29,320 nucleotides of DNA from a virus: the IMG/VR virus record IMGVR_UViG_3300032291_000190, positions 1 to 29,320 of that record; one strand, given 5' to 3'. Positions 1-2,968 of this stretch are shown here, one piece after another. A program made the position numbers and the translations under genes. Within the stretch, counting starts at the first letter, position 1, and every line of letters begins with the position of its first letter. Under the pieces are notes generated by a model. It searched no databases. It worked only from the letters and a program-made list of their open reading frames with translations, and was not told where the DNA came from.

Positions 1-474
1 ATTAGCATCCATCACTAACCGAATGCCGTAACCATAGTCATGTTTGTAATGTTCCGCAAGAAATCTTTCGCGTGTTACATAACCAACTAGAGTGAACTTA
101 CTATCGACATGGGGTAGTTGTTTATCACCAAAGAATTGCACCAACACTGCAATGTCAGATACAAATAATTCTGGTGCATTAAATATTAATTGCGGGAGCG
201 TGGAAGTTTTGACTTGTATATTTTTTCCCAGTGGTGTAGATAAGTCATGTCCGTTGTCACCGCTCGGCGAAATCGTTCTGTCCACTTGTAGCCCAAGTCC
301 TTTGCCACACGCCATCTCACCCAACTGACCCATAAGATTAACCGAATACGACGAGTTGTTGCGATCAAACTTTTTATCGGTGACTTCATATTGTTTCTTA
401 TTCTCTCTGACTAGATGGATGAAACGAATGCCATCCAAGATTTCATCTAGGGTTAATTCAATATCTACTGCCAT
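1..474 (-). CDS. PD-(D/E)XK-like nuclease, C-terminus beyond window edge
   Basis: The reading frame starts at ATG 474 and stays open to base 1, giving 158 residues with the C-terminus missing. A conserved-looking acidic residue sits in GQLGE (E53), followed by GDNGHDL (D77) and IQVKTS (Q87-V-K89). The spacing E...D...QxK is that of the PD-(D/E)XK nuclease fold, with Gln in place of the usual Glu/Asp before the catalytic Lys, a variant known in that superfamily. The start overlaps the end of the upstream ATPase gene by 10 bases, so it is translationally coupled, and AAGGA lies just upstream. Position after a Cas4-like nuclease and an ATPase suggests recombination or replication, but the substrate cannot be told. 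It could also be a restriction-like or junction-cleaving enzyme. Fold assignment is moderate; the exact family is unknown. Confidence 0.6.
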   Translation of the reverse strand, partial: MAVDIELTLDEILDGIRFIHLVRENKKQYEVTDKKFDRNNSSYSVNLMGQLGEMACGKGLGLQVDRTISPSGDNGHDLSTPLGKNIQVKTSTLPQLIFNAPELFVSDIAVLVQFFGDKQLPHVDSKFTLVGYVTRERFLAEHYKHDYGYGIRLVMDAN

Positions 475-1298
475 TGTCTCATTGTCCTTGCTCTTGCTAA
501 CTCGGCAGGTGAGTTATACAAAGTCATGTGGCTTGCCTCCGCTGACAGCGAGACATAACTCTCTGCTGTTGGGTCAGCCTTACCATGTCGGTTCTTCACT
601 ACGGCAACGCGGTAAGCGTTTGCCTGTCCGTCTAGTGCAACACTAAGAACCAACTCTGGTAAAGCTGCAACCTTACCCATTAACGCTTTACGCGGAGCAG
701 GATAGTTAGGCTTTGACATCTTCTCGTTCTCGGATACGTGATGTAGAACGATAAAGGCTGACTCGTATTCACGAGCCATGTAGTGGAAGGCTGACATCGC
801 ATCACGTAATGCAGTCCATTCATTGTCGCTTGTTGAAGCGACATTCATTAAGTTGTCTACAAAGATTGCTTGTGGTGCAGAGCCGTGCAGTTCTATCCAA
901 GCTTCTATTTCTTCTTCGATATCTTGTAACGAAGGCGACGGATCAAAGTTGAATCGAACATGCCCTGCACCATCAGCGAGTGCATCTTCCAAAAGGACTG
1001 ATGCATCAGAGTCCATCATCCTCTCAACCTGTGCGACTTCTTTCTCCATAAGGATTGCCCCTGCACGAGTGGCTATTGTTCGGGAGTCAGAGTCAGCTGA
1101 GAAGTAGAGTGACGGAATCTTAGATTGAATTGCGTACCACAGTGCAAGCAGTGTCTTACCACCACCAGGTTGTGCTGCTATCAAGTGCAACTGCGCTTGA
1201 CGAAACACAACTTGTGACTGAGTAAGTTGAGGCAGAATCTCTGGGAGCATATGCCCAGCAGGAGATTCAACCCCCACTACTTGCAACAGTGAACGCAT
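465..1298 (-). CDS. RecA/DnaB-type P-loop ATPase (helicase or recombinase-like)
   Basis: This 277-residue protein has a clear Walker A, AQPGGGKT (residues 42-49), a Walker B strand AIFVDN (144-149), and a sensor-like strand FIVLHH (about 188-193) in the order of the RecA/DnaB/KaiC ASCE ATPases. The C-terminal part (VVKNRHG, about 232-238) resembles the K-N-R-x-G motif of DnaB-type replicative helicases. It lacks the N-terminal primase-interaction domain of full DnaB and is much shorter than the usual 440 or more residues, so it is a single-domain ATPase. In the family such proteins load on or translocate along single-stranded DNA. It sits between a probable ssDNA-binding protein and a PD-(D/E)XK protein and downstream of a split Cas4-like nuclease, which fits replication or recombination. 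The start follows the upstream stop at once (TAACATG). RecA-like recombinase and RadA/RepA-like helicase both remain possible. Confidence 0.8.
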   Translation of the reverse strand: MRSLLQVVGVESPAGHMLPEILPQLTQSQVVFRQAQLHLIAAQPGGGKTLLALWYAIQSKIPSLYFSADSDSRTIATRAGAILMEKEVAQVERMMDSDASVLLEDALADGAGHVRFNFDPSPSLQDIEEEIEAWIELHGSAPQAIFVDNLMNVASTSDNEWTALRDAMSAFHYMAREYESAFIVLHHVSENEKMSKPNYPAPRKALMGKVAALPELVLSVALDGQANAYRVAVVKNRHGKADPTAESYVSLSAEASHMTLYNSPAELARARTMRQWQ

Positions 1299-1299
1299 G

Positions 1300-1773
1300 T
1301 TACTTAGCCCAGATAGTTTCTGCTTCTACTGCACCAGGTGTGAAAGGCTTCGGTCCCTTAGCTGGGTCGAACCAACCAACGTAAGCCTTACCAGCCTTGG
1401 AAGTACCCTTCTTCTTTGCATACTTTCCACGACCGTCTGGTAATGCTGGTGCATCTGGATGTCCATATGTCCATTCATTACCGTAGCGATCCATGATTAC
1501 TTCAATTGCTTGAGGTGTTGTTCCTGTTGCAACTGGAGTTGGATTGAGTCCAGCATCTTGTAGCACTTGAACTGCTGCAGGTGTTGCAGCAAATGCTCCA
1601 CCTGATGCACCGCCTGAGCGGTTGTTCAGTGATTGTTGTAGTTCAGTAGCAGAAGCAATTGCTTCAACTGCTGCGGTTAGGTTAGCTCTAAATTCAGAGA
1701 CACTATTACCTCGGACGGTGAATAGGTCAGTTGAATTTAACTTACCTGTATACGAGAACATAGATTCAGTCAT
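1300..1773 (-). CDS. Probable ssDNA-binding-type phage protein
   Basis: This 157-residue protein begins with a hydrophobic/acidic segment (FTVRGNSVSEFRANL, about 18-32). Next comes an Ala/Gly/Pro/Thr-rich linker (about 53-88) and a basic, aromatic tail with KGTSKAGKAYVGWFDP (about 122-137). In many actinophage proteins this arrangement ends in a small zinc-binding module of the type C..HG...KG.S..GK.Y.GWFC, placed in replication or recombination operons. Here the positions where cysteines would be expected carry Tyr, Asp or other residues, so the metal site appears to be lost. The gene overlaps the upstream nuclease fragment by 8 bases and is followed without a gap by the ATPase, so the three are co-translated. 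The ssDNA-binding role is an inference from layout and remembered family pattern; treat the product as hypothetical otherwise. Confidence 0.45.
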   Translation of the reverse strand: MTESMFSYTGKLNSTDLFTVRGNSVSEFRANLTAAVEAIASATELQQSLNNRSGGASGGAFAATPAAVQVLQDAGLNPTPVATGTTPQAIEVIMDRYGNEWTYGHPDAPALPDGRGKYAKKKGTSKAGKAYVGWFDPAKGPKPFTPGAVEAETIWAK

Positions 1774-2443
1774 CTAGTTCATCTCCTTTTCTTTTTCCCT
1801 GGATTTGTAATGGGAAATCTTTGCCTCCCATTGCAGGACATTGTGCCGTAAAACTGCACATCCTGCAGGAGTCACCAACTGATGGAGGAAACCAACCCTC
1901 CCAAACGGCAGCATTCATCGCGCCAAATACGTAATCAAAATATTCCATTGTCAGATGTGACAAGTCAATCAATTCATCGAGCTCGCCTTTGCGAGTCATG
2001 AAGAAGGCTCCCCACTTAGGGCGGACACCATAGATGCGTTCAATACCAGAGGCATAGAGACCTGCTTGGATTGCACCGAACGGAGTCCTAGAACCTGTCT
2101 TGTAGTCAACGATAACGAGGTCTTCCCCTACCTTGTATATCGCATCAACTACCATGCGTACTGGTGTACCCCCGAAGTGTACATCAGCAGCCCATTCAAT
2201 TCCAGGACGTCCGTCGGGCATTGTTGCGATCTGCCAACCAGATTGCTTGTACCAGTTATGGTACGACTCAACCTGCTTGAGCCCATCGCTCTGCCAAAAG
2301 GGCAGATCTTCCCCATCAGGACGTAAGGTGGTCTTACGTCCTGCCGTCTTCCACTCCGTAGAGGGAATGCCAGTCTTTTGTTCTGTCTCCAGAACAGCGT
2401 CATTAAATACCTCTAACCATTTAGAAGTCAAATCGATAGTCAT
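1766..2443 (-). CDS. Cas4/RecB-like PD-(D/E)XK nuclease, C-terminal fragment
   Basis: This 225-residue cistron carries the core of a Cas4/RecB-family exonuclease: VVDAI (D100), VDYKTG (D113, K115), QAGLY (Q126, Y130) and a terminal cluster C193-x2-C196-x5-C202. It lacks what normally comes first in the family, namely the Cys-Pro-x-x-Tyr motif and the GxxVH histidine. Both are present in the separate cistron at 2617-2811. The two parts add to about 289 residues, a normal length for a single-chain phage Cas4-like exonuclease. The start ATG 2443 lies inside the end of the zinc-ribbon cistron (23-base overlap). An in-frame stop about 20 bases upstream of that ATG rules out a long in-frame extension. 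The ribosome binding site is weak (GGAA). The likely role is 5'-end resection or recombination, if the fragments assemble. Confidence 0.82.
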   Translation of the reverse strand: MTIDLTSKWLEVFNDAVLETEQKTGIPSTEWKTAGRKTTLRPDGEDLPFWQSDGLKQVESYHNWYKQSGWQIATMPDGRPGIEWAADVHFGGTPVRMVVDAIYKVGEDLVIVDYKTGSRTPFGAIQAGLYASGIERIYGVRPKWGAFFMTRKGELDELIDLSHLTMEYFDYVFGAMNAAVWEGWFPPSVGDSCRMCSFTAQCPAMGGKDFPLQIQGKRKGDELDD

Positions 2444-2651
2444 CGGGGTTCCAATCTGGGTGATCTACTGGGGTTGGTGCTGTCATTGGTGAGCCACACT
2501 GGGCGCAGAAGGAATCTAAGAACCACATAACCAGCTCGTAGTCTGAGAAGATTGCTCTGATTACTTGGATGTTAGAACCGCAGTTGATGCACTCATTGCT
2601 GGGTACACCACGTTGGTCAATCCCCTGTGGACTGTTGTCGGTAGAGCTCAT
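2421..2651 (-). CDS. Small zinc-ribbon protein inserted between nuclease fragments
   Basis: This 76-residue protein has two CxxC pairs, CINC (residues 21-24) and CAQC (about 50-53), each followed by Gly-Ser. This is the pattern of a free-standing zinc ribbon, which usually binds DNA, RNA or protein. The rest is short and acidic at the C-terminus (DHPDWNPDDYRFDF). GGAG lies about 10 bases before ATG 2651, a good ribosome binding site. The gene overlaps the preceding nuclease N-fragment by 35 bases and the following C-fragment by 23 bases, each junction being a +1 shift. It may act as a bridging subunit of the split nuclease, an unrelated inserted cistron, or, if a frameshift occurs, an internal domain. 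Metal binding is well supported by the motifs; the role is not known. Confidence 0.65.
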   Translation of the reverse strand: MSSTDNSPQGIDQRGVPSNECINCGSNIQVIRAIFSDYELVMWFLDSFCAQCGSPMTAPTPVDHPDWNPDDYRFDF

Positions 2652-2811
2652 GGTTTAACCACTCCAACATTGTATGGACGGCGGAACCAGCAGCAAGATA
2701 GACTGCTGGCTTTTCTGGAACCATGGCTACCTTACTCAGATAATATTTCTGAGGGCAGGACTGCCACGTAGACAGCTGACTAAAGGATCTATGAGGAGGA
2801 AGTTCATTCAT
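2617..2811 (-). CDS. Cas4/RecB-like nuclease, N-terminal fragment
   Basis: This 64-residue peptide starts at ATG 2811 and matches the first block of Cas4/RecB-type nucleases. It has RSFSQLSTWQSCPQKYYL (C19, the first cluster cysteine, with Pro and Tyr-Tyr) followed by PAVYLAAGSAVH (H46, the motif-I histidine) and a short helix. It then stops at TGA, where an intact family member would continue into the catalytic core found at 1766-2443. A longer frame reaching 2955 would begin inside the intrinsic terminator and run through non-coding sequence, so I reject it. No good ribosome binding site is seen, but TGGTATTCT lies 6 bases before the ATG, so a leaderless transcript is possible. It opens the left-hand DNA-metabolism operon. 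On its own it cannot be catalytic; it would have to pair with the C-terminal fragment. Confidence 0.7.
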   Translation of the reverse strand: MNELPPHRSFSQLSTWQSCPQKYYLSKVAMVPEKPAVYLAAGSAVHTMLEWLNHELYRQQSTGD

Positions 2812-2826
2812 ACTATAAGAATACCA
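2812..2826 (-). promoter_or_regulatory. Possible extended -10 promoter of the DNA-metabolism operon
   Basis: On the minus strand TGGTATTCT (2826-2818) matches an extended -10 element (TGn plus a TATAAT-like hexamer). It is followed by 6 bases and then ATG 2811, so transcription would begin at or next to the start codon, a leaderless arrangement common in actinobacteria. A second -10-like hexamer TATAGT abuts the ATG. No convincing -35 element is visible. The placement after a strong terminator makes a promoter here likely; the exact element is uncertain. Confidence 0.3.
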
Positions 2827-2937: not shown

Positions 2938-2968
2938 AAAAAAAGAGGGGGACAATTAAGTCCCCCTC
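2938..2968 (-). terminator. Intrinsic terminator of the late (structural) operon
   Basis: Read on the minus strand, GAGGGGGAC, a 6-base TTAATT loop and GTCCCCCTC form a perfect 9-bp GC-rich stem followed at once by seven T. It begins 12 bases after the stop of the 71-aa gene at 2981. This is a textbook rho-independent terminator and marks the end of the virion and lysis operon. On the plus strand it has no T-tract, so it works in one direction only. Confidence 0.92.

Follow-up and report, generated by a model that had tools for sequence, protein, structure and literature searches.

Does a phage nuclease whose conserved residues are divided between two reading frames represent a broken gene, or an enzyme that is built from two polypeptides? 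The question is raised by a 29,320-nucleotide stretch of viral DNA (IMG/VR record IMGVR_UViG_3300032291_000190, positions 1 to 29,320; hereafter the window), in which two short cistrons, N and C, carry the N-terminal and the C-terminal half of a Cas4/RecB-like nuclease. A first-pass annotation of the sequence had described both halves, and its coordinates and motifs for them proved exact on the minus strand (Table 1). The nuclease is indeed split between N and C, but this two-cistron picture was incomplete, as a third, overlapping cistron, M, located between the halves, had been overlooked. The comparative analysis presented here suggests that N and C are very likely translated separately, as the two subunits of a single functional Cas4/AddB/Dna2-like PD-(D/E)XK nuclease, found in a freshwater actinophage lineage.

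Table 1. Features of the split nuclease locus (window positions unless a locus is named)
Feature	Position	Strand	Description
N, N-terminal nuclease half	2811..2617	minus	64 aa; CPxxYY cysteine C18 (C18PQKYY), motif-I G42SAVH46
M	2651..2421	minus	76 aa; four-cysteine, zinc-ribbon-like protein; third frame, between N and C
C, C-terminal nuclease half	2443..1766	minus	225 aa; D100, D113YK115, Q126xxxY130, C193-x2-C196-x5-C202
Next cistron, operon partner	1300..1773	minus	157 aa; its start and the C stop overlap
DnaB-like/RecA-fold ATPase	465..1298	minus	downstream, same operon; phrog_243, E 2.2e-77
-10-like hexamer	2818..2823	minus	TATTCT; 6 nt separate it from the N start codon
Terminator-like hairpin and T-run	2938..2968	minus	upstream of N, dividing it from the upstream gene; reads GAGGGGGACTTAATTGTCCCCCTCTTTTTTT
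Junction ORFs, lineage B	L122:4338-5310; L150:5682-6011; L156:5661-6005; L359:3830-4156		lysine-rich, 107-114 aa, apparently coiled-coil tails

Two halves of one exonuclease

When the two fragments are compared with phage protein families and aligned end to end, a check that the first-pass annotation had proposed, N corresponds to positions 11-68 and C to positions 75-293 (E 6.9e-57 for C) of the 313-position exonuclease family PHROG 1870, and the two halves therefore jointly cover one intact exonuclease. Both also score above the cut-off of 22 bits for the Pfam family PDDEXK_1 (PF12705), with 31.3 bits for N (E 2.6e-7) and 31.8 bits for C. The catalytic set of H, D, D/E-x-K and QxxxY is complete when N and C are combined, and the four conserved cysteines are distributed over two chains, with one on N (C18) and three on C (C193, C196 and C202). 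A CRISPR-associated Cas4 identity was considered and rejected, because C reaches 30 bits and N 15.7 bits against the CRISPR Cas4 equivalog TIGR00372, which has a cut-off of 65; nor was a cas gene noticed in passing in the surrounding region.

Distribution of the split among actinophages

A scan of IMG/VR with the C protein of the window retrieved 80 loci at 82-99% identity, and all of those that are not cut at a contig edge have the order N-M-C in the same three frames. The exonuclease is split at the corresponding position in OX376641 (titled LanE43-AprF5) as well, where an N of 61 aa and a C of 202 aa overlap directly, without M. F5 (38.9 kb) and E7 (39.1 kb) are cultured lytic phages of 'Ca. 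Planktophila' (PMC10202952). A scan with the C protein of OX376641 yielded a second lineage of 80 loci, and later scans enlarged both lineages and provided the outgroup. The resulting 261 distinct N-to-C DNA sequences comprise 121 split sequences in which M lies between N and C (lineage A, which contains the window), 92 split sequences in which it does not (lineage B, which contains OX376641) and 48 fused ones.

The split is thus kept at the same loop in all 213 distinct sequences of the two freshwater lineages, which answers the annotation's call to look for it in related genomes, whereas the distinct actinophage homologues outside lineages A and B are single chains in 48 of 48 cases, in agreement with its statement that intact family members carry all the motifs on one chain. 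Two extra outgroup scans added 44 more fused loci, many of which are contigs already counted, and one truncated locus. A single-chain exonuclease is also present in five annotated phages (of Gordonia, Rhodococcus, Streptomyces, Cutibacterium and Mycobacterium) and in the unannotated D29 record. N is missing from 14 loci, each of them truncated by a contig end that lies within 250 nt of the start of C, and two scans of genome contigs found no relatives in host genomes. The annotation had also allowed for the gene being one frame in reality; such a continuous frame was seen neither in the cultured-phage record nor in the independent assemblies, which number in the hundreds. Judged from these sequences, the split is stably inherited across hundreds of phages. 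Neither the window nuclease nor any member of its two lineages carries all the motifs on a single polypeptide, which lowers their status as typical members of the family but not the claim that they work like one.

Conservation of residues and selection on each cistron

The catalytic and cysteine columns are invariant in lineage A, lineage B and the fused forms, including C18, Y22, G42 and H46 of N, and D100, D113, K115, Q126, Y130, C193, C196 and C202 of C. The exceptions consist of gaps in truncated contigs, a deletion of 26 codons in one sequence (L027), isolated single-sequence substitutions, and a W in place of Y22 in two fused sequences. In lineage A the median omega is 0.035 for N, 0.056 for M and 0.094 for C, and in lineage B it is 0.075 for N and 0.106 for C, with no internal stops in either lineage. 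These values, computed on stretches picked to avoid the cistron overlaps, are rough, since the synonymous distances are near saturation, yet all of them are far below 1. By this measure, purifying selection on all three cistrons is strong.

What the sequences show directly is the split and its conservation, the set of residues on each half, and selection acting on every cistron. The invariant catalytic and cysteine columns, the low omega values and the presence of the split in every one of the 213 sequences all favour a working split over decay, with the cysteines divided 1 + 3, as the first-pass annotation had argued. Relatives in which one fragment has decayed, which it had named as evidence to the contrary, are not seen. 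Two single cases deviate from the common pattern: L027 carries its 26-codon deletion in-frame in N, and in L283 the C frame is broken into two ORFs. Each may be either a sequencing error or a broken copy.

Predicted structure and position of the break

In an AlphaFold2 model of the intact homologue L167 (28 sequences, pLDDT 91.9), the break maps to the loop at residues 58-63, between the helices 42-57 and 64-85, and the helix upstream of this loop bears the motif-I histidine in the intact fold. The closest solved structures to the model are AdnA (Z 17.3, 229 aligned, 3.8 A), ACE1 (17.2) and AddB (15.2), and further structural matches include Dna2 (Z 13.5) and type I-C Cas4 (13.3). When C is modelled alone, its predicted fold matches the Cas4-family ACE1 nuclease and its core is confident (88-97), with the pLDDT falling to 56-57 at residues 191-210, where the three cysteines reside. 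The low confidence in this part of the model would fit, if weakly, a region that needs N, and alignment depth could also be its cause.

A probable two-chain nuclease and its alternatives

Neither half has the full site and both are conserved together, hence the parsimonious reading is a heterodimer with a bridging, probable Fe-S cluster. N would contribute the motif-I histidine and one cysteine, while C would provide the catalytic D/DxK, the QxxxY motif and three cysteines. The two proteins would most likely pair as a heterodimer, completing the active site in trans, and the four cysteines, three of them on C and the fourth on N, would probably coordinate an Fe-S cluster linking the two chains. 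A 1 + 3 arrangement of cysteines is also that of AddB, Dna2 and Cas4. We infer the pairing of N with C, the Fe-S cluster and the nuclease activity from sequence, with the cluster being assumed by homology. A more specific proposal is that N and C form an obligate heterodimer whose Fe-S cluster staples the two chains, that nuclease assembly would follow the insertion or loss of this cluster and thereby be iron- or redox-gated, and that this arrangement was fixed across the freshwater actinophage group; we put it forward tentatively, as a plausible reading that could well be wrong.

The cistron that lies between the halves in lineage A raises the alternative of a three-subunit enzyme, in which M would be required and would be placed both physically and genetically between N and C. 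The window contains one copy of M, whose ORF shares 35 nt with the end of N and 23 nt with the beginning of C. M is found between N and C in the same frames in 121 of 121 distinct lineage A sequences, all of which retain its CxxC...CxxC pattern, and its matches to zinc ribbons in Pfam, PHROGs and NCBIfam are weak and sub-threshold. The constant position and the strong constraint mean that M could have a third-subunit role in lineage A. We nevertheless consider a three-subunit enzyme unlikely, since N and C adjoin without M in lineage B, some phages of that lineage have unrelated ORFs in this place, and the lineage B homologue of M, where found, is kilobases off and on the other strand. Such remote homologues were detected in 28 distinct lineage B sequences with a profile built in this analysis (HMM E 1e-10 to 3e-4), and their off-site location on the other strand suggests that M is an independent small protein located at the lineage A junction. 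M is therefore probably a small zinc-ribbon protein in its own right, with a gene that ended up at this junction, and not an obligatory subunit.

M was also assessed as a homing endonuclease behind the split and rejected, as no homing-endonuclease domain was found in it above threshold in Pfam, PHROGs or NCBIfam (a match to a PHROG HNH family, E 0.59, does not rise above noise) and the split is also present in lineage B, where M does not lie between the halves. In 21 lineage A sequences M has no ATG at its usual position; the codon reads ACG in L037, a weaker M match is also seen in L046, and M may start elsewhere there.

A different alternative is that the two halves have been repurposed and no longer form a nuclease, with C acting as a DNA-binding protein and N having a separate role. 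That the nuclease role is deduced from residues leaves some room for this, but D, D, K, H and the four cysteines do not vary among some 210 divergent sequences, a degree of conservation that DNA binding by itself would not demand, and we regard repurposing as improbable.

N and C could also be joined during translation, by a frame shift (+1 from N to C in lineage B, and +1 twice through M in lineage A) that would produce one fused nuclease, and the overlap of the cistrons and their +1-related frames in most sequences are compatible with such recoding. It is nonetheless very improbable, and a frameshift fusion is rejected on the diversity of the junction, an upstream in-frame stop and the intervening ORFs. 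The surroundings of the N stop are varied and lack a conserved slippery motif, and in two lineage B sequences (L145 and L158) a stop in the C frame lies just upstream of the C start. In four others, 305-955 nt separate the two domains and contain additional ORFs (107 and 218 aa in L122, 109 aa in L150, 114 aa in L156 and 108 aa in L359), with N and C both intact, and the frame relation of N and C differs in L150 and L156. In lineage A, the fusion would have to include 76 foreign residues. Unrelated ORFs are thus present at some lineage B junctions and yet both halves are kept, which argues that N and C act as separate chains. The 218-aa ORF of L122 shows a weak match to DUF7574.

Finally, a broken gene, an assembly error or a frameshift introduced by a read error, for which the N deletion of L027 and the disrupted C frame of L283 might be cited, is ruled out by the comparative data, and the chance that the split is noise is negligible, because all 213 distinct sequences, from many samples and including a cultured-phage record, keep the same split with omega values of 0.035-0.106, no internal stops and invariant catalytic columns.

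Relation to known systems

The single-chain Cas4-family exonucleases of actinophages (PHROG 1870/69), such as Mycobacterium phage SWU2 gp68, Gordonia phage Remus gp82 and the homologue of Propionibacterium phage PHL060L00, share with N and C the same residues, domain order and helicase neighbour, at 27-36% identity over C, but consist of one chain in every case examined. Cas4-like pfam12705 nucleases have already been noted in Mycobacterium and Propionibacterium phages (PMC5704561). The word 'split' is absent from that Cas4 phylogenomics paper, and the open-access literature searched contained nothing on split Cas4 in phages. AdnA, AddB, Dna2, CRISPR Cas4 and ACE1 share the predicted fold of the window nuclease family (Z 13-17), but they have their four cysteines on one chain, as opposed to two chains for N and C.

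The nearest precedent for the N/C split is provided by the 'genes in pieces', exemplified by the NrdA of Aeromonas phage Aeh1. In this group, which includes NrdA-a/mobE/NrdA-b of Aeh1, gp43A/43B of phage 25 and the gp39/gp60 topoisomerase of T4, an enzyme is encoded in two adjacent cistrons, sometimes with a gene between them, and the split NrdA of Aeh1 and the split gp43 of phage 25 have been shown to work as pieces (PMC2988022). N and C are likewise two conserved cistrons that together correspond to one intact homologue. However, homing endonuclease genes are found at the breaks of the genes in pieces, whereas the N/C junction has no recognisable one, be it intervening as in Aeh1 or otherwise, and lineage B is mostly without an insert. 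The N/C split differs further in being fixed across hundreds of phages and in dividing the residues of a probable metal cluster. A foreign coding sequence has been inserted into a member of the same gene family in Mycobacterium phage Traft412 (gp72, MN585997; L423:928-2676), but that gene is one continuous ORF and its insert lies much further downstream, at about residue 184. The insert of gp72 is long, contains a LAGLIDADG domain and is probably an intein.

The locus appears to offer a well-known Fe-S nuclease fold in a naturally split and evolutionarily stable form, as well as an example of a phage gene split that is retained over long divergence, with a junction that admits unrelated genes and has no recognisable homing endonuclease. 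It makes testable the idea of an Fe-S cluster serving as an inter-subunit staple, for which the Planktophila phages of 'Ca. P. landstejnensis' LanE-43 provide a culturable phage-host pair. Furthermore, gene callers would label C a truncated exonuclease and could miss N altogether.

Age of the split

Lineages A and B group together against all fused forms in a first tree, with a support of 100/99. In a tree with more outgroups, the long-branched fused nuclease of Pahexavirus joins lineage A, and in a tree without Pahexavirus the A + B grouping receives 100/100. The AU test rejects neither arrangement, with p values of 0.289 for A + B and 0.645 for A + Pahexavirus. The sequences are thus compatible with one fission, with two fissions at the same loop, or with a fission followed by re-fusion.

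Expression signals and neighbouring genes

Of 51 distinct sequences from upstream of N in lineage A, 50 have a TANNNT hexamer ending 6 or 7 nt ahead of the N start codon. This spacing is that expected of a message starting at the ATG itself, which makes a leaderless transcript probable for N in lineage A. The hairpin upstream of N has a stem of 9 bp, scored on the plus strand at 2945-2968, and is a consensus match only. Most sequences in which M has a clear ATG show 32-44 nt of overlap between the M start and the N stop, and the M stop overlaps the first C-frame ATG by 14-23 nt in most sequences; these overlaps suggest that N, M and C are translationally coupled. No Rfam matches or tRNA genes were found in the window.

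The helicase-like gene downstream suggests a role for the nuclease in phage DNA replication or recombination. The 157-aa protein encoded between C and this gene has no PHROG match, and its counterpart adjoins the split nuclease in lineage B too. This lineage B counterpart, located downstream of C (127-131 aa; L089:6732-7115), has a Cys-rich end, CxHG...SKKNGKPYxxWxCxQP, and the 157-aa protein of lineage A has a similar segment without the cysteines.
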